This document shows, in pieces, positions 10,578 through 35,647 of a stretch of DNA of 64,000 nt. The notes below the pieces were generated by a model that did not search any database, was not told where the DNA came from, and saw only the letters and a list, made by a program, of their open reading frames with translations. A program made the translations under genes and the position numbers. The stretch's first letter is position 1. Every line of letters begins with the position of its first letter. The stretch comes from Hyaloraphidium curvatum (lineage: Eukaryota > Monoblepharomycota > Hyaloraphidiomycetes > Hyaloraphidiales > Hyaloraphidiaceae), in assembly GCA_025558095.1 (NCBI GenBank), contig JAIVFI010000040.1, positions 248,001-312,000 of the forward strand, in the 5' to 3' direction.

Positions 10578-11378
10578 TCACCGGCGCCTGTCGCGGCTGC
10601 GGTCCCGGTTCCTATCCCGGCCGCCCCTGTCTCGGCTGCGGCTCCTCTCCCTTCCGCGGTCGCGGTCCGCCTCCCTGCTGCGGCTCCGCTCCCTCGGTTT
10701 CGCGTCCCGGTCCCTGTCCCTGCTTCGGCTCCGCTCGCGCCGCTTCCCGTCGCGGCGGTCGTCGCGCCCTTTGCTCTTCTTCCTGCGGTCGTCCTCCGAC
10801 CTCGAATCCGTCGACTCGGAGGAAGAAGGCGACCTCCGCCGCTTGGAGCTCCGCTTCTTATCCCCCGACCCCTTCCGCTTCCTCTTCCGGCGGTCGGAAT
10901 CCGAGCTGTCCGAGGAGGAAAAGTCCGAGGAGCTGCTCGAGTCGCTCTCGGAGGTCGACCCGAGCGAGTCCGACGAGCTCCCGCTGTCCGACGAGCTGCT
11001 GCTCGACGCCCGCCGCTTCTTCGGCTTCTTGGCCTCCTTCTCCTTCGGCTTCTCCTTCTCCTTCGGCTTCGGCTTGGCAGCCTGCGCCTCCCTCTCCCTG
11101 GCCTTCTCCGCCATCGCCCTCTCAACCGCCATCTTCTGCGGATCCAGCACCCCCCCTTTCGGCACCACCACCCCCTTTGGCGGCGGCAACCCCCTGCCCC
11201 CGGCCACCTGCGGCGCCGCGGGTTTCTTGAGCGGGATCGTGTTGCGGCACTGGAACGCAAAGTGGCCCGGCTGGCCGCACTTTTTGCAGCCGCCGGGCTG
11301 GATCTGCACGGCGTCGCGGCCGGCGGCGAGGCGCGCGAAGGCTTCGGCGCCGCGTTGCTGCAGATCCGAGGGGTCCAT
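10578..11378 (-). CDS. CCHC zinc-knuckle, Arg/Ser-rich protein (SREK1IP1-like)
   Basis: Single-exon 266-aa protein with one zinc knuckle near the N-terminus, GCKKCGQPGHFAFQCRN, which closely matches the knuckle of SREK1-interacting protein 1. A Lys/Glu-rich segment follows, then a long Ser/Asp run and an extended RS/RD/RE tail (RERSRSRDRDRD). RS tails of this kind mark nuclear pre-mRNA splicing factors, so a spliceosome-associated role is inferred. I chose the ATG at 11378 (MDPSDLQQRGAEAF), as in the animal relative; an in-frame ATG at 11492 would add 38 uncharacteristic residues. It is divergent to crotonase 1 with only 142 bp between starts. Confidence 0.8.
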   Translation of the reverse strand: MDPSDLQQRGAEAFARLAAGRDAVQIQPGGCKKCGQPGHFAFQCRNTIPLKKPAAPQVAGGRGLPPPKGVVVPKGGVLDPQKMAVERAMAEKAREREAQAAKPKPKEKEKPKEKEAKKPKKRRASSSSSSDSGSSSDSLGSTSESDSSSSSDFSSSDSSDSDRRKRKRKGSGDKKRSSKRRRSPSSSESTDSRSEDDRRKKSKGRDDRRDGKRRERSRSRDRDRDAKPRERSRSREADRDRGRERSRSRDRGGRDRNRDRSRDRRR

Positions 11379-11520
11379 TCTTCCCGGCGGGGTGGAAGAG
11401 GAATGGGAACAGCAGGCCGTTCCCACGAAAAGGGAGTGTGTCGGCTTGCCGCCAACTCCAGCTTCCCGCGAGGCGACAGCACTTTCGGCCACTAATCGGA
11501 GCCTCTAACATTACGGAGAT

Positions 11521-12706
11521 GGCGTTCAACTACGACAACGTGCGTCTCCGTCGCGCGATTCGCCCCGCGATCTCCCGGGACTTACTTCCGAGCCTGTCTC
11601 CCGTTCACTCGGCAATGTCGGAAACACGGCCCGCCCGGCCTACCAGTTCACGGACATCAAGGTCACCCGCGACGAGAAGGACGGGCGGATTGCGATTGTC
11701 ACGCTCAACAGGCCGGACAGGATGAACGCGTGGCGCGACCTCGGCCTGATGGGCTCGGACCTAGTCCGCGCCTTCAACCAGTTCGACCAGGACGACTCGG
11801 TGCGCGTCGTGGTGGTCACCGGCGCCGGCAAAGCGTTCTGCGCGGGCGCGGATCTTCAGCAAGCCGACAACCCGTTCGGCGACCGCGGCAGGGGGAGGAC
11901 GCTGCAGAACGCCAGGGACGGGGGCGGGCAGGCGGCGCTGGCGATCTCGAGGTGCAGGAAGGTGGTGATCGCGGCCGTCAACGGGGCAGCCGTCGGCATT
12001 GGGATCACCTGTGGGCTTTCGGTGCCGCCAGCTTTGGCATGCCGGGCTGATATCTCTTCAGGCACCCTGCCGATGGACATTCGCTTTGCCTGGAAGGACG
12101 CCAAGATCGGGTTCGTCTTTACCCGCCGCGGCATCGTTCCCGAGGCTACCTCGACCTACCGTGGGTGCTACTCTCGGCCCTTTCGAAACAGCTCGCCGTC
12201 TTACTCCTGCTTCTCGCCTCAGACCTCCCGCGCCTGATCGGCCACTCCAAGACGATGGCCCTCATGCTCACCGGCGAAGTGATCCCGGCTTCCCACAGGT
12301 GGCTCGAACCCCTCTGGGCGGACCTGCTCCCCCGGCCCGAGGACGTCCTCCCCGCCGCCCTTGACATGGCCCGCACCATTGCGACCAAGACCTCGGCGCT
12401 CTCCTGCGCCATGGTCAAGGCGCTCGTCTGGCGCGGGGCCGGCACGCCCGAGGAACAGCACCTGCTCGACAGCAGGGCGATGTTCGCCACGGGCTTGGGG
12501 CCGGATGCCGCCGAAGGGGTCAGGTCGTTCCGGGAGAAGCGGGACGTCAAGTTCGAGGGATCCGTGACCAAGGACATGGGAGCGGGGACGAACTTCTCGG
12601 GATTTTACCCGTGAGTTGTCTTCTCGGCGGCGTCGGGATCGCCGGCTGATGTTCGTGCAACAGGTGGTGGCGCGCCGTCGAAACCGACGGCGTCCCGAAG
12701 CTTTGA
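11521..12706 (+). CDS. Enoyl-CoA hydratase/isomerase family protein (crotonase 1)
   Basis: Spliced 304-aa crotonase from exons 11521-11541, 11647-12010, 12062-12160, 12223-12610 and 12664-12706. Conserved features are LNRPDRMNAW, the first oxyanion-hole block GAGKAFCAGADL, the second block AAVNGAAVGIGIT and the DAKIGFVFTRRGIVPEA segment, which carries the Glu used by hydratases and isomerases. Three crotonase genes occur in this window and end similarly; here the last exon supplies PWWRAVETDGVPKL. The first exon is only 21 nt. The N-terminal peptide lacks an obvious mitochondrial presequence and the C-terminus does not end in a standard SKL, so compartment is unclear. The substrate cannot be read from sequence; fatty-acid or aromatic acid degradation is typical. 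Confidence 0.85.
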
Positions 12707-12834
12707 GCAAAGCTTACCGACGCGTATGCTCATGGGTCTCGCAAGGAATAGATCTTGCCCTTTTGGCGCCTCAGATCGTGCTATGGTCGTGCGAATGAGG
12801 CAGCCGCCACAGGCGGAGAACCAAACAAACCCCA

Positions 12835-15780
12835 ATGTCCCCGGCCGGGGCCATTCTGAAGCGCCACCGGGCGGCTATAGAGACACTGAGCTCCAATTCA
12901 GATGATGCGGAGCCATATCTTTACCACTGCAGCCCCGCCGGCTCGAGATTGGGGCCCTTTCCGGGGCTGCGAACGCTCGGATCCAGGGAAGGCGATGGCG
13001 GCCTTGTCGTGCGGTACCTCAGCCTGCGGACGCTCCTGCGAACAGCTTTCACGATTGCCGAGAATTTGGGGCTCCTGAGCGTCAGCCGCGAAGGCACGGA
13101 AGGACGTCAGCGGCAGGAGAAGGTGTACGACGAGTCGCGAGGGGATCCGACGCCCGTTGCGGTGCTCGTCGATAGCGGACCCCTCCTGGCTGCTTTGGAA
13201 CTCGGCGTTCTCTTTTCCGGACGCCCGTTCATGCCTCTCGATGCTGGGGACCCTCGTTGCGGTCTAATTCTGGCTTCAGTCCGGCCTGCGGTCGTGGTTG
13301 TGCCCGATTCCAGCGTCGCAGCGGAGCTCGCTTTTCGGGATCAGACGGCACGGACTGTCCGCCTTTCCGAGCTTCTCAGCTCGCCCACGGCTTGTACACC
13401 TCCGTCATTGGACGATTCTGGACGCTGCGCCCACATTTATCACACCTCGGGATCGACCGCGCTGCCGAAAGGCTGCCTTGTCTCCGATGCCGCTCTCGCC
13501 ACCTATGCCGAACGAAAGCCGGTGCTCCATGGGATCGGCGCCGCTTCGACGGTCATGATCACGAGTCCCATGACCTTTGACCCGCAATGGGGCGACCTGG
13601 TGTCGAGTCTGGCCGCTGGGGCGAAAGTGGTCACGATCGAAAAGGAGGTGCTGCTGAACGGGGAGTTGCTGTTTGCCGCTATGGAGAGGACCGGTACAAC
13701 GCACGTGTGCACGACGCCTTCCGTCTGGAGGAACGTGCCCGTGCCGCGCGAAACGGGGTACCTGAAGCTCCAAGTTGTCGCTCTAGGAGGGGAACGGACA
13801 CCACGGAAGCTCGCCGAAGCCTGGCACAACGCTGGAGTCAAGGTCCTGAACACTTACGGAGTGACGGAATGCTGCGTCTACCAGGCTGTCGCCGAGTTTC
13901 GGTCCGATCTTCCCGGGAGTGAGAGGCTGTTGGGTGTGCCTGTGGACCCCGGCGGCATCATGCTGAGGAAGCTCGGCAACGGGGAGGCCGATGCAGACGC
14001 CATGGATCGCACCTTTGCCGATCATGAGCTGCTGGCCCCGGACGAGCTGGAGCGGCTGTCATCGGCAGGCACTTTGGCCGAAATTGTGCTTGTTGGGACG
14101 ATGGTTGGTCGGTATCTCGGCGATCCTGCTTCCGAGCCTGTCGGCGGCTTTGTAGAGCATTCCAAGTATGGTCGGTGCTTCTATACCGGCGACCTCGTTT
14201 CCATGTCTCCCCGGGGCGCCTGGTTCCTTGCCGGACGGCACGCTAGCGACACGCGGATCAAGCTCGTTGGTCGCAGAGCGGACATCCTCGAGATCGAGGC
14301 CACTCTTTCAAAGGCTTGGATGGGAATTGTCAAGGACCTCTGCGTGTCCCTCGTCGGGTCAACGGCGGCAACGGTGCTGGCCTGCGCTTGCGTCGCGGCC
14401 GAGCCAGTGTCCGTGGAACATGCGACGCTCTGGGAGCGGTTGCTGAGGGAACTGGCACTGCCCGCACTGCCCAGCCATCTGGTCCCCGGGCACTTCATCC
14501 TCGTTGAGGGTCTCCCAATAGCTCGGACCGGGAAGCTGGACAGGAAGGCCGTGCGATGCCTGTTGGAGGAGCAGGTACGGCAGCGCGAGGACCAGGAATT
14601 GGAATCGGGAGACGGGACCGGACACGGTCACGCGGGCTGGCTCGCAGCAGTGACTTCGACGTGGCGTTCGGTGTTGAACATCGCGCACGATCCGTCGCCG
14701 AAGTCGCTGTTTGCAGAATGGGGAGGTGACTCTTTTGCTTGCACACGGGCGTGTGCTCTCCTGTGGACCGAGTTTCGTCGGAACCGAGCCCCCCGGCAGG
14801 ACACTGAGGATGGCGTAGTTGATGATGAGGATGCTGGGAAGTGGGGCGAGAAGCTCCCGGCTTCTTTCGGCCCGGGCGAGCTGATGAAGCAGCCCCGGCT
14901 CACTGATTGGGCGGCTCACTTTCGGGATCGATTTGGACCTTTTGCTGCGACTACATCCGACGCTGATGGTGCACAAGATGGACCTCCGAACATGTCTTCA
15001 TTGAGCATCGGCCCGCGGCATGCGCTCTCGGAACTCGACGCCCTCTTTCGGCACGCCTGCACCCTTCCCTCTCTCATCCTTGCAGCCTTTCTACTCGAGC
15101 GCGGGGTTATGCCCGATCTGGGTCTGCTCAATGGCTCTGCGACTCCGCTTCACGCCTCTCTCAACCTCGGACACGCAGCGATAGCCCTCCTGCTGCTGGA
15201 TCGCGGCGCCGACCCGCTCCGTCGGGGGCCGGAGGGCATGCTGCCTGTGCATTTCGCGGTCCATGGCTCGTTGAACTGTCCCGCAAAGGAAGCGGAAACC
15301 GTCCTCCGCGCGCTACTGGCGCGCGGGGCGAGGATCGATGCTCGGGATTCGGACGGGGGCGGGACGCTGCACCATGCGGCGCGGGCGGGAGTATCCAGAG
15401 GGATGTTTGGCCTGTTGGTTTCACTGCACCTGGACAACGGTGGCCCGCGCAAGGGTGGGAAGAAGGCCACACCTGCAGGTGCCGCACATCCTTTAGCAAG
15501 CAGGGACTCTCACGGCCGAACGCCTCTCCACTGGGCCACCCTCAACGGGCACCGGACGCTCGTGCAGCTCTTGTTGGAGCAGTACAGGGACGTTTGCTCG
15601 GTCGACGCCAAGGACAATGACGGGGAGACGGCTTTGGCCATGGCGATGCGAAGGGCGAGATGCGGCGCGGAGGAACGAGGAGGGAGGGGCGGAGCAATGG
15701 TCTGGGGCGACATTGCGGGATTGCTGGGCGGCGGAGGCTCAACGAAGGAGGTAAAAGGGTTCGCCAAAGCTGCCCACTAG
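12835..15780 (+). CDS. Adenylation domain - carrier domain - ankyrin repeat protein (AASDH/NRPS-like)
   Basis: Single-exon 981-aa protein. Residues about 1-600 form an AMP-binding adenylation domain: A3 core YHTSGSTALPKG (about 201), A5 NTYGVTE (about 339), A7 YTGDL (about 447), an A8-like IKLVGRRADILEIEA and A10 RTGKLDRK (about 564) with the catalytic Lys. A carrier domain follows at about 610-690 with the phosphopantetheine site FAEWGGDSF. Residues about 740-960 carry ankyrin-type repeats (ATPLHASLNLGH, GRTPLHWATLNGH). The A-carrier part resembles AASDH/U26 acyl-CoA synthetase family proteins, where the C-terminus is a PQQ beta-propeller rather than ankyrins. No reductase, condensation or thioesterase domain is present. 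Likely it activates an amino or carboxylic acid and loads it on its own carrier; substrate and acceptor are unknown. Confidence 0.8.
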   Translation: MSPAGAILKRHRAAIETLSSNSDDAEPYLYHCSPAGSRLGPFPGLRTLGSREGDGGLVVRYLSLRTLLRTAFTIAENLGLLSVSREGTEGRQRQEKVYDESRGDPTPVAVLVDSGPLLAALELGVLFSGRPFMPLDAGDPRCGLILASVRPAVVVVPDSSVAAELAFRDQTARTVRLSELLSSPTACTPPSLDDSGRCAHIYHTSGSTALPKGCLVSDAALATYAERKPVLHGIGAASTVMITSPMTFDPQWGDLVSSLAAGAKVVTIEKEVLLNGELLFAAMERTGTTHVCTTPSVWRNVPVPRETGYLKLQVVALGGERTPRKLAEAWHNAGVKVLNTYGVTECCVYQAVAEFRSDLPGSERLLGVPVDPGGIMLRKLGNGEADADAMDRTFADHELLAPDELERLSSAGTLAEIVLVGTMVGRYLGDPASEPVGGFVEHSKYGRCFYTGDLVSMSPRGAWFLAGRHASDTRIKLVGRRADILEIEATLSKAWMGIVKDLCVSLVGSTAATVLACACVAAEPVSVEHATLWERLLRELALPALPSHLVPGHFILVEGLPIARTGKLDRKAVRCLLEEQVRQREDQELESGDGTGHGHAGWLAAVTSTWRSVLNIAHDPSPKSLFAEWGGDSFACTRACALLWTEFRRNRAPRQDTEDGVVDDEDAGKWGEKLPASFGPGELMKQPRLTDWAAHFRDRFGPFAATTSDADGAQDGPPNMSSLSIGPRHALSELDALFRHACTLPSLILAAFLLERGVMPDLGLLNGSATPLHASLNLGHAAIALLLLDRGADPLRRGPEGMLPVHFAVHGSLNCPAKEAETVLRALLARGARIDARDSDGGGTLHHAARAGVSRGMFGLLVSLHLDNGGPRKGGKKATPAGAAHPLASRDSHGRTPLHWATLNGHRTLVQLLLEQYRDVCSVDAKDNDGETALAMAMRRARCGAEERGGRGGAMVWGDIAGLLGGGGSTKEVKGFAKAAH

Positions 15781-15868
15781 GCAGAGTAAGGCTACATTAG
15801 GCAGAGCGTGGCTGCACTTGATCTAGCCCGCTCGGCAGAGTGTGGCTGCATTAGGCAGAGCGTGGCTA
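15781..15868. repeat. Short direct repeats between convergent genes
   Basis: The 88-bp gap between the stop codons of the adenylation-ankyrin gene and the PP2C gene is built of diverged copies of a roughly 20-bp motif, best seen as CATTAGGCAGAGCGTGGCT near 15796 and again near 15850. Further partial GGCAGAG copies sit at about 15778 and 15833. Confidence 0.6.
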
Positions 15869-16963
15869 CTATCCATCGAAGGTGTAAGGCGGCGGCCGGA
15901 AGAAAACGACCATGACCGAGAGATTGTCCATGCTCACTGAACCCCGCTTCATGGCTTCGTTTGTGGCTTCCGCCACGAGCATCTTGGCCGTCTGCTTCAG
16001 CCTCTGCCTCAGCACGCTCTCCTGCATCGGCAACAAAGTCGGCGCCGTCACGTGCTTGTACACCAAGCGCACGGCGTCCGCCGGAGAGAGAAAGTCCCAC
16101 AAGCCGTCGCTGGCGAGGACGACAAAGTGGGCGTCCGGGCCGAGGTCCCTGCGAGCGACGTGGGGAATGCAGCTGACCCACGGCTTGCACCGAAAGTCGC
16201 CCAAAGTCCGGCTGGGAAGGAGCGTCCCCATGGCGCGATGGTGGCCCATCTGGTCGAGGGACACGAAGCCCCCGCGCTGCTGGATCGCGGCTTGCTCGAC
16301 GGCACTTGAGGAGTCATGTTTGGTTGTCAGCAGATCCGGCTTTCCGCCCACCGCCATCACGGCCTCGCAGTCGCCGACGTTGCCTACATAGAGGCTGATG
16401 GGCGCTGCACGGGCCGAGCCCCAGCGCACGTAGATGAAGACGGCTACAGCGCCCTGGTCCTGCGCGAGGGACCAGCGAGTGGGATCCGAGGAAAGGGCCT
16501 TCTCGAGGGCGAGGAAGGATCCGAAGAGAGGGTCGCGTACGCCGCCTTCAGCCACGGGAATGTGGGCCGCCTTGGCCTCGAGCGCGTGCGGGCGAGGTTT
16601 ATCCAAAGGCAGCGTCGCCAGGTCGTGGAAATGTCCGTAGAAATGATCGCGAACGTACTTGGCCACATCCACGCCGCCGTGTCCGTCCACGACGCCGAAG
16701 AGAGCCGAGAGCGAGTGCAGTTCGGGGTGCTTCACGGCCGGCGGCGGCGTGCTTCCGAGCGGACACGCGTCCACAAAGACCGACTTGTCTTCCATGTAGG
16801 CTCTATCGTTCTGAACCTGCGCGTAGCTGACTTCGAAAACGGAACGAGGAACGAAGGTATCGCTCCCAATCGGCTGCGATGCCGCAGCAGGGCCGTAGGA
16901 GCTCGGATGGCCATAATGGAAAGACACTTGACTCGCGCCGAACAGCGTGGAAGTCGACGCCAT
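15869..16963 (-). CDS. PP2C-type (PPM) serine/threonine protein phosphatase
   Basis: Metal-dependent protein phosphatase, 364 aa, single exon. PPM motifs appear in order: RAYMEDK (metal Asp), VVDGHGG, LYVGNVGDCEAV, RTLGDF, VLASDGLWDFLS and DNLSVMVV, covering all metal-coordinating aspartates. I start at MASTSTLFGAS; the frame stays open for another 370 nt upstream without family resemblance. The catalytic domain occupies nearly the whole protein, as in short fungal Ptc-type phosphatases; the insertion VFIYVRWGSARAAPIS before LYVGNVG is slightly longer than usual and could hide a short in-frame intron. Convergent with the upstream adenylation-ankyrin gene. Confidence 0.85.
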   Translation of the reverse strand: MASTSTLFGASQVSFHYGHPSSYGPAAASQPIGSDTFVPRSVFEVSYAQVQNDRAYMEDKSVFVDACPLGSTPPPAVKHPELHSLSALFGVVDGHGGVDVAKYVRDHFYGHFHDLATLPLDKPRPHALEAKAAHIPVAEGGVRDPLFGSFLALEKALSSDPTRWSLAQDQGAVAVFIYVRWGSARAAPISLYVGNVGDCEAVMAVGGKPDLLTTKHDSSSAVEQAAIQQRGGFVSLDQMGHHRAMGTLLPSRTLGDFRCKPWVSCIPHVARRDLGPDAHFVVLASDGLWDFLSPADAVRLVYKHVTAPTLLPMQESVLRQRLKQTAKMLVAEATNEAMKRGSVSMDNLSVMVVFFRPPPYTFDG

Positions 16964-28652: not shown

Positions 28653-30121
28653 ATGGCGCCGCCGACCGCCGGCCTGCGGCTGTGGCTCGATGCGGCGGAC
28701 GCCGCGACGCTGACCGTCGCCGACGGCAAAGTGACGCAGTGGAAGGACAAGTCGCCGGACGGGCGGGCTGCGATGCCGCGCGGCCCCGGCGCCGCGGCGG
28801 TCGCGGCGGGCGCGCTCGGCGGGCTGCCGGTCGTGCGGCTCGCCGGCGGCACCGCGTTCGACGTGCCCGAGATCAGGCCGGCCGCCGGCCCGGCGGCCGT
28901 CTTTGCCGTCGTCCAGCGCCTGCCCGAGCAGGCGTCCGACGCGCAGTGGCAGCGCGTCCTGTCGGTGCCGGGCCCGGAGTCCGACACCAAGGCCCCCGGC
29001 TTCTGCATGACCGGCGACGCCAAGGGAACCGGCAAGGAGTTCGCCGCGACGATCATGTCGACTTCGAATCAGTCCGTGGTCCTGGCAGCCCTCGCAATCG
29101 GCGGCCAGCGTAAAGGCAACGGCCAGTTCCTCAAGGGCGACATCGCCGAAGTTCTCATCTACGATCGCACGTTCCTGACGTGGGACGAGAGTCATCAGGT
29201 GATCGAGTACCTGAGCACCAAGTGGGGCATCGCTCTCGGGGCGGAGGACCGCAACTGGACCCGTGCCGGGCCCCTCGGCGATCTGCCCCAGCGCACTTCA
29301 GACGTGCTGCCGCTTTCGGACCAGGCCAATGCCGGCGGCTGGGTGCGCTACGACGCGATGTGGGACGAGTTCGACGGCCCGGCGCTCGATGCGGCGAAAT
29401 GGCGGCCCTCCTTACCGTGGTGGCAAGGTCGTCCGCCGGCCTGGTTCGATCCCAAGAACGTGGCCGTGCAAGAGAGCTGCCTGACGCTCACCATGAAAAA
29501 GGACAACCCGCCCGAGATGCCCAAGGACGGCGGGTACAAGGACTACACGAGCGCCATCGTCTCGAGCCTGACCTCGGTCTTGTATGGCTACTTCGAGGTC
29601 CGCGCCAAGCCCATGCGCTCCGCAGGATCGAGCTCGTTCTGGTGGGTGCCCGGCGCTCCGAAATTGCGTCCGTAGCACCCCCTAATGTTCGGCTCAGGTT
29701 CCAGTGCGCGCCCGAAGATAAGCCCAAGGATTTCAAGGAGATGGTCTGCGGCAACGAGATCGACGTCTACGAGATGGGCGGCGGCGCCCCCGGCTACGAG
29801 CAAAAGTACAACATGAACGCCCACGCCACCCGCCCCAAGGGCGGCGGCACCTGCGAGAGCTTCGGCTGCGGCGGGTGTTGGGTCGCGCCGTTCAAGCTCG
29901 CGGACGACTTCCACGTCTACGCGCTCGAGTGGGACGACAAGTGGATGACGTACTACGTCGACGGGGTGGTGGTGCGCAAGGCAGAGAACCAGTGCTGGCA
30001 CTTCCCGCAGCGCATGATCTTTGACAGCGAGACCATGCCGACCTGGCTCGGGATGCCGAAGGACGAGGACCTGCCGTCGACCTACTACGTGGACTACGTC
30101 CGCGCCTGGAAGAAGCCTTGA
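28653..30121 (+). CDS. Glycoside hydrolase family 16 protein with N-terminal ConA-like lectin domain
   Basis: Two exons, 28653-29641 and 29698-30121; 470 aa. Residues about 1-200 form a laminin-G/concanavalin-like module (GLRLWLDAADAATLTV, VLIYDRTFLTWDE) of the sort attached to bacterial polysaccharidases. The GH16 jelly roll begins near residue 230 (YDAMWDEFDGPALDAAKW) and carries the catalytic motif EIDVYE (E-x-D-x-x-E), formed after splicing, plus FHVYALEWDDKWMTYYVDGV. GH16 enzymes cut beta-1,3/1,4-glucans, agarose, carrageenan or porphyran; the arrangement is most like agarase-type members. No signal peptide is evident at either candidate start (28539 or 28653), which is odd for such an enzyme and suggests a missed first exon. 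Confidence 0.75.
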
Positions 30122-30527
30122 TGGAGAGGAGAGGGCGACGAAATAGCGGGATAGACGCGAAACTGCACTTCTTCGTAACAATCACTACAGACCTTTACCT
30201 TGCACGAGACCCATGCATCCCAGGAGATGATCACTCGCTGACGTCCCCAGCCTCCATCGCAGCCGCGGGCCTGTAGGCGCTCACGGCCTTGATGACCAGC
30301 ACGCACACCCCCGTCGTCGCCATCAGCGCGGCATTGACGGCATGCCCCGTTTTGTAAAACGGTCCGTCCGACGCGAGGTACACCTGCCCGCCCCGGACGT
30401 ACTGCCCGCCCCGGACGCTTCGAAAAGCTTTCAAAGGCATGCGATGGTTCAAAGGTTCTTCCCATTACTTTTCGGGCGGGAGGGTGCGTGGTGCGCGCTC
30501 GTGCTACGCAAACCGGCCGCCTCCCCT
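30122..30527. other. Intergenic region holding an MFS transporter relic
   Basis: Gap between the convergent GH16 and ABCG 1 genes. Apart from the minus-strand MFS-like fragment at 30231-30452 nothing else is recognised. Confidence 0.4.
30231..30452 (-). pseudogene. C-terminal remnant of an MFS (anion:cation symporter-like) transporter
   Basis: A minus-strand open frame encodes VYLASDGPFYKTGHAVNAAL, then one hydrophobic helix LMATTGVCVLVIKAV and a short tail. The D-x-P-x-Y-x-x-G-H block just before the last transmembrane helix is typical of the fungal Dal5/Tna1 allantoate-nicotinate permease group of the major facilitator superfamily. No upstream MFS sequence exists: it abuts the end of the ABCG gene. 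The fragment also contains a duplicated 18-bp unit (GTACTGCCCGCCCCGGAC-like, encoding repeated RGGQ), consistent with neutral decay. Confidence 0.45.
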
Positions 30528-32829
30528 TCACCTCCTCCTGTGCATCCGCGCAAAGTAAAGCCCGACGAGCGACCTGCAAACCGAACGCGTCAACCACGGC
30601 GACGCGAGAGATGTGGCAACACTGTACCCACAGCAAAGTCGTGCACGCCAACAACCCCCCCAATGCCGCGTATGCTTGACCCACCGAGGCGCCCTCGAGA
30701 TCAAACAGCGCGCTCAAGTACGAATACGCGGAGTCGTCCCCGTACACGCAGTACTCGGCCACGGCGAGGTCGCCACCGCCGGGTGCCAGGGCGGCAAAGA
30801 TCGCCGAGGAGCCTTCGCGCATGGGGAGGAGGGAAAGGGCGGCGGGGAGGGAAAAGTTGGCCGGGTTGGGGACAAGCCCCGTCGGGAGGGCGTCGGTGAG
30901 GGAGGAGAGGGAAGCCACGACGGAAGCGGGAGTATTGCTTGAACTTGCCAGCTCCGCGCGGGCATTCGAAACGCGTGAGACGAGGGTAGCGCGGTCCCAG
31001 AACGCATTCGCGGCGTCGGGGTTGGCGAACGGAGCACTGAGTGCGTTGAGAGTCCCATTGGCAATCGCCGCGGCCATCCCCTGAATTCCGACCGGTGGGC
31101 ATATGTAGCGACCCACGTACGGCACGGCGGCCAGAAGGTAAATTTGGTGGCCCCATCTTTCGAAGTTCACGTTCCGCACCCAAGAGGCGATTGGGAGGGC
31201 ATAGTAGTAATTCGAGCTCAGCGTCTGGGTTGCGGTGAACACCATGCTGAAGAACATGGTGATTTGAAAAGCCTGGAAGGCGTTAGAGGACCATGCGGCA
31301 GTAGCCTGGACCAGCGAGGTCGCGCAGAGGATGCACAGCAGAATCATGGGGTAGATGGTCCCGTAGAATCCCGGGGTGATGCCAGTCAGGATGAGCGTGA
31401 AGAAGATTCCCAAGGATGCGGTGGCAAGGACCAGTATGCACTCGACGAGGAAGTAGCTAGCCCAGTAGGCGAAGGTGCTGTAGCATCCGACCTCCACTTC
31501 CTGGAGGAAGACCTCCCTGTCGCCAATGAACTGGGGAATGGCGCTTGCGGCGAGGAAGAGGACGAGGTTGAGGTTGATTGAAACGGCTGCAGCCTGGTTG
31601 GTGATGCCAAACAGGTCGTTGCCGCTGTCCCGGTAGAAGACGCCGAAGATCACAGAGATAGCCATGAAGATGATCGTGCGGCCCCACGACGTCGCCGGGT
31701 TCCTCCAGTAGCGGAGTAGGCATCGGTCGCCCAGAAGCCTCAGTTGTCCAAAGAAGCCTTGGCCCGTCGGCGGTGCACGTTCAGAGTTGTCGGTTAGCTC
31801 CGCGAGGCTTTTGTTGAGCTTGGCGATGGTGCCCATCGTAGACGCAGCCAAAGGCGAGGCCCGATAAAGCTCTGCCCAGGTTGCGGGATCGGCCAAGACG
31901 GCATCGAGGAACGCTTCCACGGGGTTGGGCTGCTTCGCGGCGTTGAGGCCGAGAGCTGCAAAGTAGCTCTCCATGGAGCCCGAGGGCCCAAAGTAGCACG
32001 TGCGGCCGCCGCCGAGGAGGAGGCACTGGTCGAACAGGGCAAGGATGCGCGGGCCGGGTTGGTGCACGACACAGATGACGCAGACGCCCTCGGCGCGTGC
32101 GCACTCGAGAACCTGCTCCATCAGCAGCAAAGCCAGGTGTGCGTCCAGGCCAGACGTCGGCTCGTCCAAGATAAGTGTTTTGGGCCGGCCGATGAGCTCG
32201 ATGGCGACCTCGACGCGCTTGCGCTCGCCCGTGGAGACGCCCCTCGCGACCTCGTCGCCCAGCCGCGTGTCCCTTGCCTGCCCAAGGTGCAGCGCGGCAA
32301 TAACCTCATCGACACGGGCCGAGCGCTCCGCGGCGGTGCACGATCGGGGCATCCGGCACGCCGCTGCGAATTCCAGCGTTTCGCGCACGGTCATGGAGGG
32401 TATGCAGGCCATGCGGGCGTCGACGATGCCGAAGTGGGTGCGCAAGGCGCGGGAGGACGGAAGACCGTTGACACGAACGTCGCCGGTCCAGGCGCCGCGG
32501 GCCTTTCGGCCGGCGAGGATATCGATGAGCGTGGTCTTGCCGGCGCCCGACGGCCCGATGACTGCCAGGGCGCGGCCCGGTAGCGCGAACGCGGAGCAGC
32601 CGAGCAGCGCATCGGTCTGCGTGCGCTTTTCGAACCAGCCGCCCGACGACACGCGGCAGGAGAGCGATTCCCAAGTCAGAGTGAAGCCGCGGGGACCTTC
32701 CGGAGGGGCTGCAGGAGGGGCTGCTCGCTCGCTCTTCGCCGCGAGCGGAATGTCCTCCATTACTGCATTAGCGTCGGCATTCCCAATGTCCGCCGACGCC
32801 GTGCTGGCTGCCCGAGTGGAGCCTTCCAT
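30528..32829 (-). CDS. ABCG-type half transporter (ABCG 1)
   Basis: ATP-binding cassette subfamily G (White-type) half transporter, 747 aa, two exons (32829-30632 and 30573-30528). The nucleotide-binding domain is N-terminal: Walker A GPSGAGKTT, signature VSTGERKR, Walker B LILDEPTSGLD, then HQPG switch. Six hydrophobic segments follow (for example WGRTIIFMAISVIFGVFY, FLVECILVLATASLGIFF). Splicing restores the ending ACTTLLSLVGLYFARMHRRR, the expected last helix and basic tail. A long extracellular loop of about 120 residues precedes the last helix. ABCG half transporters dimerise and export lipids, sterols or xenobiotics. It lies head to head with ABCG 2, 212 bp between start codons, suggesting coexpression and possibly heterodimerisation. 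Confidence 0.9.
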
Positions 32830-33041
32830 GGGGAATGACGTCGTGGGGCCAGCGGGGAATGTGGCGAAGCGCGGAACCTTCGATTTCGCCCCCACTCGCA
32901 GCCGACGTCGGTCGCGGGATTCCGCGTTGCTTTGAGCTAGGAGACCATTCCGGAGCTGTGAAGCGCGGGACAGGAGGCACGCCCGCCCCGTGCGGCGGTC
33001 GGGAAGGGAACCTGCCTCTCCGCGGACCTTCGGACGAAATC
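32830..33041. promoter_or_regulatory. Bidirectional promoter region of the two ABCG genes
   Basis: 212 bp between divergent ABCG start codons; this is the only place for both core promoters. No TATA-like element is obvious. Confidence 0.5.
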
Positions 33042-35647
33042 ATGGAAGCCGAACCTGCTCAATCCAAGGCCGCGAAGATGCGGTCGTGGGCCAGCTGGGG
33101 CGACTCGGGCGCTGCTTTGACATTCAGGGACGTGGCGTGCTCCGTCGGGCCCCGCGCAAAGCCGAAGGTGTTGCTCGAGGACGCTGCCGGCTTCTGCGGG
33201 GCAGGACAAGCGCTGGCCATCATCGGCCCCTCGGGCGCCGGCAAGACCACGCTGCTCGACGTCATAGCCCGCAGAAAGACCAGCGGCCGATGGACAGGCG
33301 ACGTGCGGCTCAGCGGCCAGCACCTTTCCGACGCCGCGTTCCTCGCGCATACGGGCTACGTCGGCGCAGGCGACGTGCTCACTGCACACTGCACCTGCAG
33401 GGACGGGCTCTCATTCGTCGCTGTGCTGCGCCTCCCTCGGAACGCGTCCAGCGCGAGTCGCCGCGAATGGGTCGACGGAGTTCTTGCGGCCATGCGCCTC
33501 GAACACCGCGCGGACAGCCGCATCGGCAGCACCCTCGTCCGCGGCATCTCCACGGGCGAGCGCAAGCGCCTGCAGGTCGCCTGCGAACTGCTGCCCTCGG
33601 TCCGTCTGCTCCTCATGGATGAGCCCACTACGGGCCTTGACTCTGCGACGGGCAAGGAGGTCATTTCCTGCGTGCTGGAGGCCGTCCGGCTGCGCAAGCT
33701 GGCCTGCGTCGCGGTCCTCCATCAGGCGTCGGGCTCGATCCTGGAGCAATTTGACCTCATCATGGCCCTGGCCAACGGGCACATGTGCTACTTTGGGCCG
33801 ACCACGGCTGCGCCACGGTACTTTGAGCTTACGGGCACGCCGATCGAGGGGAACCCAGGCGATTGCTACGCTGAAGCCCTAGCCATGCGGTCGTCGACCA
33901 TGATCGAGGCGTGGAAGGGCTCGGAAGCCCGGGCAGCCCTGATGCAGCGCCTCGACGCGCTTCACTCCGAAAACCCCGCCGCGGAAAGCGACGGCCCGCT
34001 CGAGGTGCCGAAAGGCCTCGTATCCTGGGGCTGTGGTGGCGCGGGCCCGCCAGCCCTGTGGCCCACGCAGTTTTGGCGCATCTTCCGGCGCGAGTTTGGC
34101 GCGACCGTGCGCGACCGCTCCCTGGGCCTCTTCCTCATCCTAACGGCCCTCATCGGTGGGCTGTTTATTGGGTTGATGTTCTACGGGTCATCGAGGACTG
34201 ATTACCGTAGGTGTCTGCTTCGCATGATCAACTGACATCGCTAAGCTCCCTTGAACTGCTCTTCAAGGCGGCACCAGCGCCCGCATCGCTGCATCAACAA
34301 TGATCGTGGCAATCCTTGCTTTGTTGTCCTTCTCCTTTGCCTCCCACGTGATCGAGCAGCGCAAGCAGTACTATCATGAGCTAGCAGCAGGCTGCTACGT
34401 TCGCAGTGCGTACCTCGCTGCCGTTTTTGCGAACTGGCTAGCATGGCAGTGCCTTGTCGTGGTGCGTTTCCCGTTCGCGACCGCACGCTTCGATTCTGAC
34501 GATTCGGCCAGGCAATTTTCATGGTCATTGCACTCGGCATGGCTGGCTGGAACCCGGCAAATTTGGGCCGCTACATCGGCTACGGGCTTTCGGCGTCATT
34601 CCCCGCCGCGGTTGGTTCCCCTTGCGCACGTGCACGGTGCCAAAACTGAACATGACACATGCAACCCAGGCCCTTGCACTGCTGATCACCAACGTTTCCC
34701 CCACCACGACCTTTGCCAGTGCTGTGCTTACCCTAGTGGCCTTTACTGTTTGGATGCTCGGGTGAGTGGCTCGCCGCCCTCATTCTTTTGTCTGAAGCTG
34801 AACGTGCGCCGTGGCAGGGGCCGTCATCCAACCAACTCGACACTGTACACTATGCACCCGTCTGTCAAGGTGTTCTGGCAGTGGTTCAGCTACGTCAGGC
34901 TGTGGTATATCCCCGCGGTTCGGGAGGAGTGTGCCGACATGAAGTTCACGTGCCAGCCACAGGACATGCTGCAGTTGCCCATCGGGAAGATGTCGGGGCA
35001 GGGCTCCAACAGAACGGCGGCGGCACGGCTTCAGGCAGCGGCGCGGGGAAACGTGACCCTGCTGCGTATTCTGAACGCCTTCCCCGGGGTGGAGGAGGCG
35101 CACGCGGCGGCGACAGATTTACTGGCGCTGAGCGAGCGGGTGCGGGACTTTGAGGCCGCCGCGGCGGCAGTGCAGGGCGGCGGCGTGCCCGATGCCGCTG
35201 AAGCGGCTTCCACGCTCGCGCAGGCCGCCTCGATCGCCCGCTCCGCCTTCGCTTCCGCAGTCAATGCTACCGGGGAAGCCGCCATCTCCGCAGCGCTCGG
35301 CGCGGCCTTTGCAGCGCACGGTCTGCTTGCCTTTGCCTCGTCGGTGGCGCCCGGCGTCGGAACCGTGCCTCATTGCAGGTTGACCACCGGAGACGAGTTT
35401 CTTGCCATCCAGGCTGGATTCGACTGGATCCACTGGGACGATCATGGAATCATTGTTGGGCACGGCGTGGACCATCCCAACGTCACCCCCACGGGGTTCT
35501 ACATCGCAGGCGAGCCTTTTCTCTCGAGGACGTCGAGTCGATCGCGTGCTGATCCCCGTGCGACCCGCAGTTGCCTTCATCACGGGCATCGGGTGGCTTT
35601 TCATGGCGTACATCGCGCTGTGGTTCTGCAACTTCAGGTCCAACTGA
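33042..35647 (+). CDS. ABCG-type half transporter (ABCG 2)
   Basis: Six exons (33042-34206, 34268-34461, 34512-34610, 34670-34761, 34818-35454, 35510-35647) give 774 aa. The nucleotide-binding domain shows Walker A GPSGAGKTT, signature ISTGERKR, Walker B LLLMDEPTTGLD and HQASG in place of the usual HQP. Membrane helices include LGLFLILTALIGGLFIGLMF, MIVAILALLSFSFASHVIEQ, AIFMVIALGMAGWN, FASAVLTLVAFTVWMLGG and a final FITGIGWLFMAYIALWF. A large extracellular loop (about 34940-35390) contains an alanine-rich helical insert. The position of the last intron is the least certain but keeps phase. Compared with the single-intron partner ABCG 1, this gene has five introns, so the pair is not a recent inverted duplication. 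Confidence 0.85.

Follow-up and report, generated by a model that had tools for sequence, protein, structure and literature searches.

The locus at 12835..15780 of the window, by which we mean the whole 64,000-nucleotide stretch analysed, raises the question of whether an adenylation (A) domain, a carrier (T) domain and ankyrin repeats (ANK) are encoded there as one protein and, if so, what kind of enzyme such a fusion would be. The gene is the following:

12835..15780, plus strand: single-exon A-T-ANK gene, 981 aa (ATG at 12835, stop ending at 15780)

The 981-codon ATG-to-stop frame lies within a 993-codon stop-to-stop frame (12799-15780), whereas each of the remaining five frames carries 14-26 stops across 12835-15780 and stays open for no more than 217 codons at a stretch. 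Among 200 mononucleotide-shuffled controls of 20 kb, the longest open run was 429 codons. The frame is therefore not due to chance, and a chance frame or an artefact as origin of the ORF was ruled out on these stop counts and shuffles. GC content was low at the second codon position in 10 of 10 blocks of 100 codons, those of the ankyrin part included, which indicates that this part is coding and shares its frame with the enzyme part. A scan of the frame for in-phase introns (donor GTRNGT, acceptor YAG, 40-320 bp) found none, and a hidden intron of this kind splitting the frame was thus rejected. The neighbours leave scant space for additional exons: upstream, the last frame of an enoyl-CoA hydratase gene stops at 12614, and downstream, a PP2C gene on the minus strand has its stop at 15869. 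A-T-ANK is one intact gene, uninterrupted at the DNA level; the single adenylation-carrier-ankyrin frame proposed in the preliminary description held in its exact coordinates, in its uniform codon-position signature and in the lack of a fitting intron.

The N-terminal part of the protein contains the following features:

13012..14589, plus strand: A domain, aa 60-585 (Pfam, TIGR01733, PDB phmmer, AlphaFold2)
13444..13473, plus strand: A3 core TSGSTALPKG (P-loop), aa 204-213 (invariant alignment columns)
13849..13869, plus strand: A5 core NTYGVTE, aa 339-345 (N, Y, G, T and E invariant)
14182..14193, plus strand: A7 core YTGD, aa 450-453 (G and D invariant)
14233..14298, plus strand: A8 core/hinge GRHASDTRIKLVGRRADILEIE (alignments)
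14524..14553, plus strand: A10 core RTGKLDRKAV with catalytic K567 (K invariant)

Pfam AMP-binding matched aa 107-356 with an E-value of 2.6e-29 and NCBIfam TIGR01733 (amino-acid adenylation) matched aa 105-493 at 1.7e-47, under its curated cut-off of 317 bits, while the top PDB sequence match by phmmer was to the A domains of the linear gramicidin synthetase LgrA (1.4e-36). In the full-length AlphaFold2 model the A domain is confident, with a pLDDT of 75-90 in most blocks, and its fold gave a VIA Z of 38.7 to DltA (3e7w) and of 37-39 to TycA and LgrA. The motifs were compared in an alignment of 14 rows, the A-T-ANK protein and 13 bacterial A-T modules. All five cores named in the preliminary description (A3, A5, A7, A8 and A10) were recovered there with their key residues invariant, the conserved set being T204-K212, D249, E345, D453, R468, D472, K476, K567 and, in the carrier, S633; the GR-D-K of A8 spans aa 467-476 and has two extra residues after GR compared with the bacterial rows. 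The N-terminal part is an NRPS-type amino-acid adenylation domain with intact A3, A5, A7, A8 and A10 residues, and the retention of T204-K212, E345, D453, R468, D472, K476, K567 and S633 makes a dead enzyme unlikely. The specificity pocket, whose prediction had been suggested earlier, gave a more limited answer: D235 and K517 are retained, which is what a domain that takes an amino acid should show, but the code DPGCAGTVYK, hand-read from motif positions and not from a superposed structure, names no particular substrate.

Downstream of A10 the carrier was assigned as follows:

14623..14949, plus strand: carrier (T/PCP) domain, aa 597-705 (alignment with bacterial T domains; sub-threshold Pfam)
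14722..14733, plus strand: GGDS phosphopantetheine site, S633 (G and S invariant in the 14-row alignment)

The claim of a carrier with a GGDS site stood as far as the aligned site, the flanking helices and the position after A10 are concerned, on which the assignment is based, but Pfam PP-binding reached only 15.6 bits (E 0.02), below its cut-off of 20.8. The domain alone had no match among PDB sequences, carries an acidic insertion at about aa 648-675, past the second helix, and was modelled with its helices at a pLDDT mostly <50. The carrier domain is divergent.

The C-terminal part is occupied by a single feature:

15013..15729, plus strand: ankyrin stack, aa 727-965 (Pfam Ank_2, AlphaFold2, Foldseek)

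Pfam Ank_2 matched at 4.1e-18 in the whole protein and at 1.6e-23 when the ankyrin part was scanned alone. The full-length AlphaFold2 model is poor over the carrier and ankyrin part, unlike the A domain, and a second model (aa 590-981) gave the ankyrin part a pLDDT of about 65-95 over most of its length. The stack comprises six pairs of helices, corresponding to some five to six repeats of which the first and the last are degenerate, and Foldseek matched it to DARPins and ankyrins at an E-value of 5e-9, so that the C-terminal ankyrin repeats were confirmed by family, model and fold search. The carrier-ankyrin interface proposed for prediction could not be drawn from these models, the carrier being unreliable in both and the interface of low confidence. 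An in-frame internal ATG lies near aa 721, directly ahead of the ankyrin part.

The host genome is eukaryotic, GC-rich and 32 Mb in 55 contigs, and the A-T-ANK gene is single copy in it at the sensitivity used. It also encodes LYS2 (A-T-reductase, contig C23), an Sfp-type phosphopantetheinyl transferase (PPTase, contig C41) and a true AASDH (A-T-propeller) on contig C4 at 190829-193997 (L029:3130-6297), the latter being the sole match above cut-off to PF13570, the ACSF4 propeller, with 270 bits. The presence of LYS2 points towards a fungal host or one from a different lineage that has the aminoadipate pathway. The A-T-ANK protein is a third A-T enzyme, with the ankyrin stack occupying the effector position. 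The AASDH gene is split across several frames by introns and can serve as an internal control for the A-T-ANK gene. A large condensation-domain NRPS was sought in the genome and none was found; the Condensation family matched only once and partially, its 31.3 bits barely exceeding the cut-off of 30.6, in a sequence that also resembles a wax-ester synthase. Elsewhere in the genome, one frame on contig C17 (709791-712976, L023) joins the C-terminal part of an adenylation domain, a carrier (35 bits) and a membrane-type tail, and by eye it is like Pls/PosA-type enzymes. Two near-identical AMP-binding genes were also noted at C10:39506-40651 and C51:7684-8829, one with an in-frame TAG and the other open; contig C51 is small (21.8 kb) and is perhaps an allelic or duplicated copy.

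We consider it likely that A-T-ANK is a eukaryotic stand-alone enzyme of the A-T type that follows the AASDH plan, with the propeller replaced by an ankyrin stack, and that combines aminoacyl loading with partner docking. Sequence and models show the parts and their order, the intact catalytic residues, the single copy and the presence of AASDH, LYS2 and a PPTase in the same genome; activity, substrate, docking role and product are what we infer. The genome's Sfp-type PPTase would attach phosphopantetheine to S633, the A domain would convert an amino or beta-amino acid into aminoacyl-AMP and load it as a thioester onto the carrier arm, and the ankyrin stack would dock a partner, which might be an enzyme acting in trans or else a protein or an amine to which the aminoacyl group passes. 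Priming and loading follow what is established for A-T enzymes together with the intact residues, while the docking step is suggested by the absence of condensation, reductase and thioesterase domains from the chain; the earlier proposal that the ankyrins recruit the acceptor is plausible.

The AASDH-like plan was borne out: an A-carrier core is followed by a C-terminal module, in a gene distinct from the genome's own AASDH, and the A-T-ANK protein may work like AASDH. Pfam found no PF13570 propeller in it and ankyrin only at the C-terminus; by its defining feature it is therefore not an AASDH. A divergent AASDH paralogue, in which the A-T part was duplicated, the propeller was exchanged for ankyrins and beta-alanine or a similar substrate was kept, is a possible but somewhat doubtful alternative. 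In a maximum-likelihood tree of 24 rows the window A domain pairs with the A domain of its own AASDH at 85/90, a pairing that is not established because both branches are long and the tree program flags long-branch joining; once AASDH is omitted, the window row moves close to the bacterial rows, as part of a starred set of five. Both proteins have FDP at positions 235-236, found in no bacterial row, as well as LGGE and the A8 insertion, which is two residues long in each; the hand-read pocket code of AASDH, DPVFVGIVWK, agrees with that of the window at 5/10 positions (D, P, G, V and K). Against this, half of the pocket positions are unlike, D and K are general, the D-P pair is also present in LYS2 (HDP), and the two A domains are only 27% identical by BLAST, compared with 25-29% between the window domain and bacterial NRPS A domains. 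A common origin of the A-T-ANK and AASDH A domains is, on these sequences, possible.

An NRPS-like A-T module of bacterial origin, or the remnant of an old eukaryotic NRPS, which became fused to ankyrins and serves a trans-acting secondary-metabolite pathway of the type proposed for the single domains of dinoflagellates, is another tentative explanation that we hold to be on the unlikely side. Bacterial NRPS A domains are the best matches both in the PDB and among prokaryotes, where A domains of the NRPS type, about 26-37% identical, headed the matches in 297 genomes of one bacterial phylum, and single NRPS domains fused to repeats have been reported from Symbiodiniaceae (PMC6361889). The identified neighbours, however, are ordinary eukaryotic genes with no obvious metabolite cluster, condensation domains are nearly absent from the genome, and whole-domain identity to the bacterial rows is at most about 32%, which excludes a recent transfer. 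The divergent carrier and the ATG near aa 721 would fit a regulator or scaffold whose A-T part is vestigial, or two separate products, an A-T enzyme and an ankyrin protein; this reading is improbable, given that the catalytic residues and S633 are all retained, no stop separates A-T from ANK and the coding signature is uniform.

The preferred reading, a stand-alone A-T enzyme with an ankyrin effector, can be placed among known systems. AASDH (ACSF4-U26, beta-alanine-activating) is likewise a stand-alone A-T enzyme with one repeat-type C-terminal domain and no condensation domain, and it shares the FDP pocket start and the neighbouring position in the tree; it differs in having the PF13570 propeller where the window protein has the ankyrin stack and in its A domain, as given above. 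LYS2 (alpha-aminoadipate reductase) has the same A-T core but ends in a reductase; it has next to no BLAST similarity to the window protein (28.5 bits, E 0.14), and no NAD-binding reductase was found by Pfam after the carrier of the latter. Ebony also combines an A-T core with a C-terminal domain acting on an amine, in its case an atypical, amine-selecting condensation domain, whereas the C-terminal part here is ankyrin by Pfam and by fold. DltA and stand-alone NRPS A domains share the A-domain fold, as the Z of 38.7 indicates, in a chain without T or ANK, and, unlike modular NRPS, the A-T-ANK chain had no Pfam match to a condensation domain.

The preliminary description had regarded the ankyrin fusion as an unknown arrangement, a claim that was not supported in this general form. 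For Symbiodiniaceae, fusions of ankyrin, HEAT or PPR repeats to single, trans-acting domains of PKS or NRPS have been reported (PMC6361889), and for Gambierdiscus a trans-AT that carries ankyrin repeats (PMC7159223), so that eukaryotic biosynthetic domains joined to ankyrin repeats already exist as a general kind of fusion. From the single domains of the dinoflagellates the present protein is set apart, going by their descriptions, by its A-T pair with a C-terminal stack and by its compact genome of 32 Mb. The ankyrin proteins of fungal clusters AsaA, FGM4 and KK-1 orf(-5) were considered as precedents and rejected, as they are separate proteins with no fusion. No described A-T-ANK protein was found in the literature, a search outside which eukaryotic protein collections lay, and many uncharacterised ones may exist; exact peptide patterns searched in prokaryote genomes and viral contigs returned no A-T-ANK relatives, only ankyrin matches in two Acidobacteria. 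A-T-ANK combines known parts in a new way.

To our knowledge, it is not settled to what acceptor AASDH-type enzymes pass the aminoacyl group bound to their carrier; one suggestion for ACSF4 is a protein-modification role (PMC10531068). An enzyme of the AASDH plan with a classical protein-binding effector, present beside a true AASDH, would offer a direct handle on this partner or acceptor. In a bolder version, to which we give little credence, A-T-ANK might be a self-contained protein aminoacylation enzyme that passes the (beta-)amino acid of its carrier to an ankyrin-bound protein in a ligase-like manner without ubiquitin-type parts.

Other observations concern the surroundings of the gene in the window. 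The stretch 15776-15870, which separates the stops of A-T-ANK and PP2C, contains four short imperfect 'ggcagag..tggct' units, which are absent from the output of the tandem-repeat finder. On the minus strand, 10578-11492 encodes a zinc-knuckle protein with an Arg/Ser-rich tail, likely a splicing-related factor. Further downstream, at 30097-34232, a minus-strand frame of an ABCG-type transporter and a plus-strand frame of a second ABC ATPase overlap at 32772-33039.
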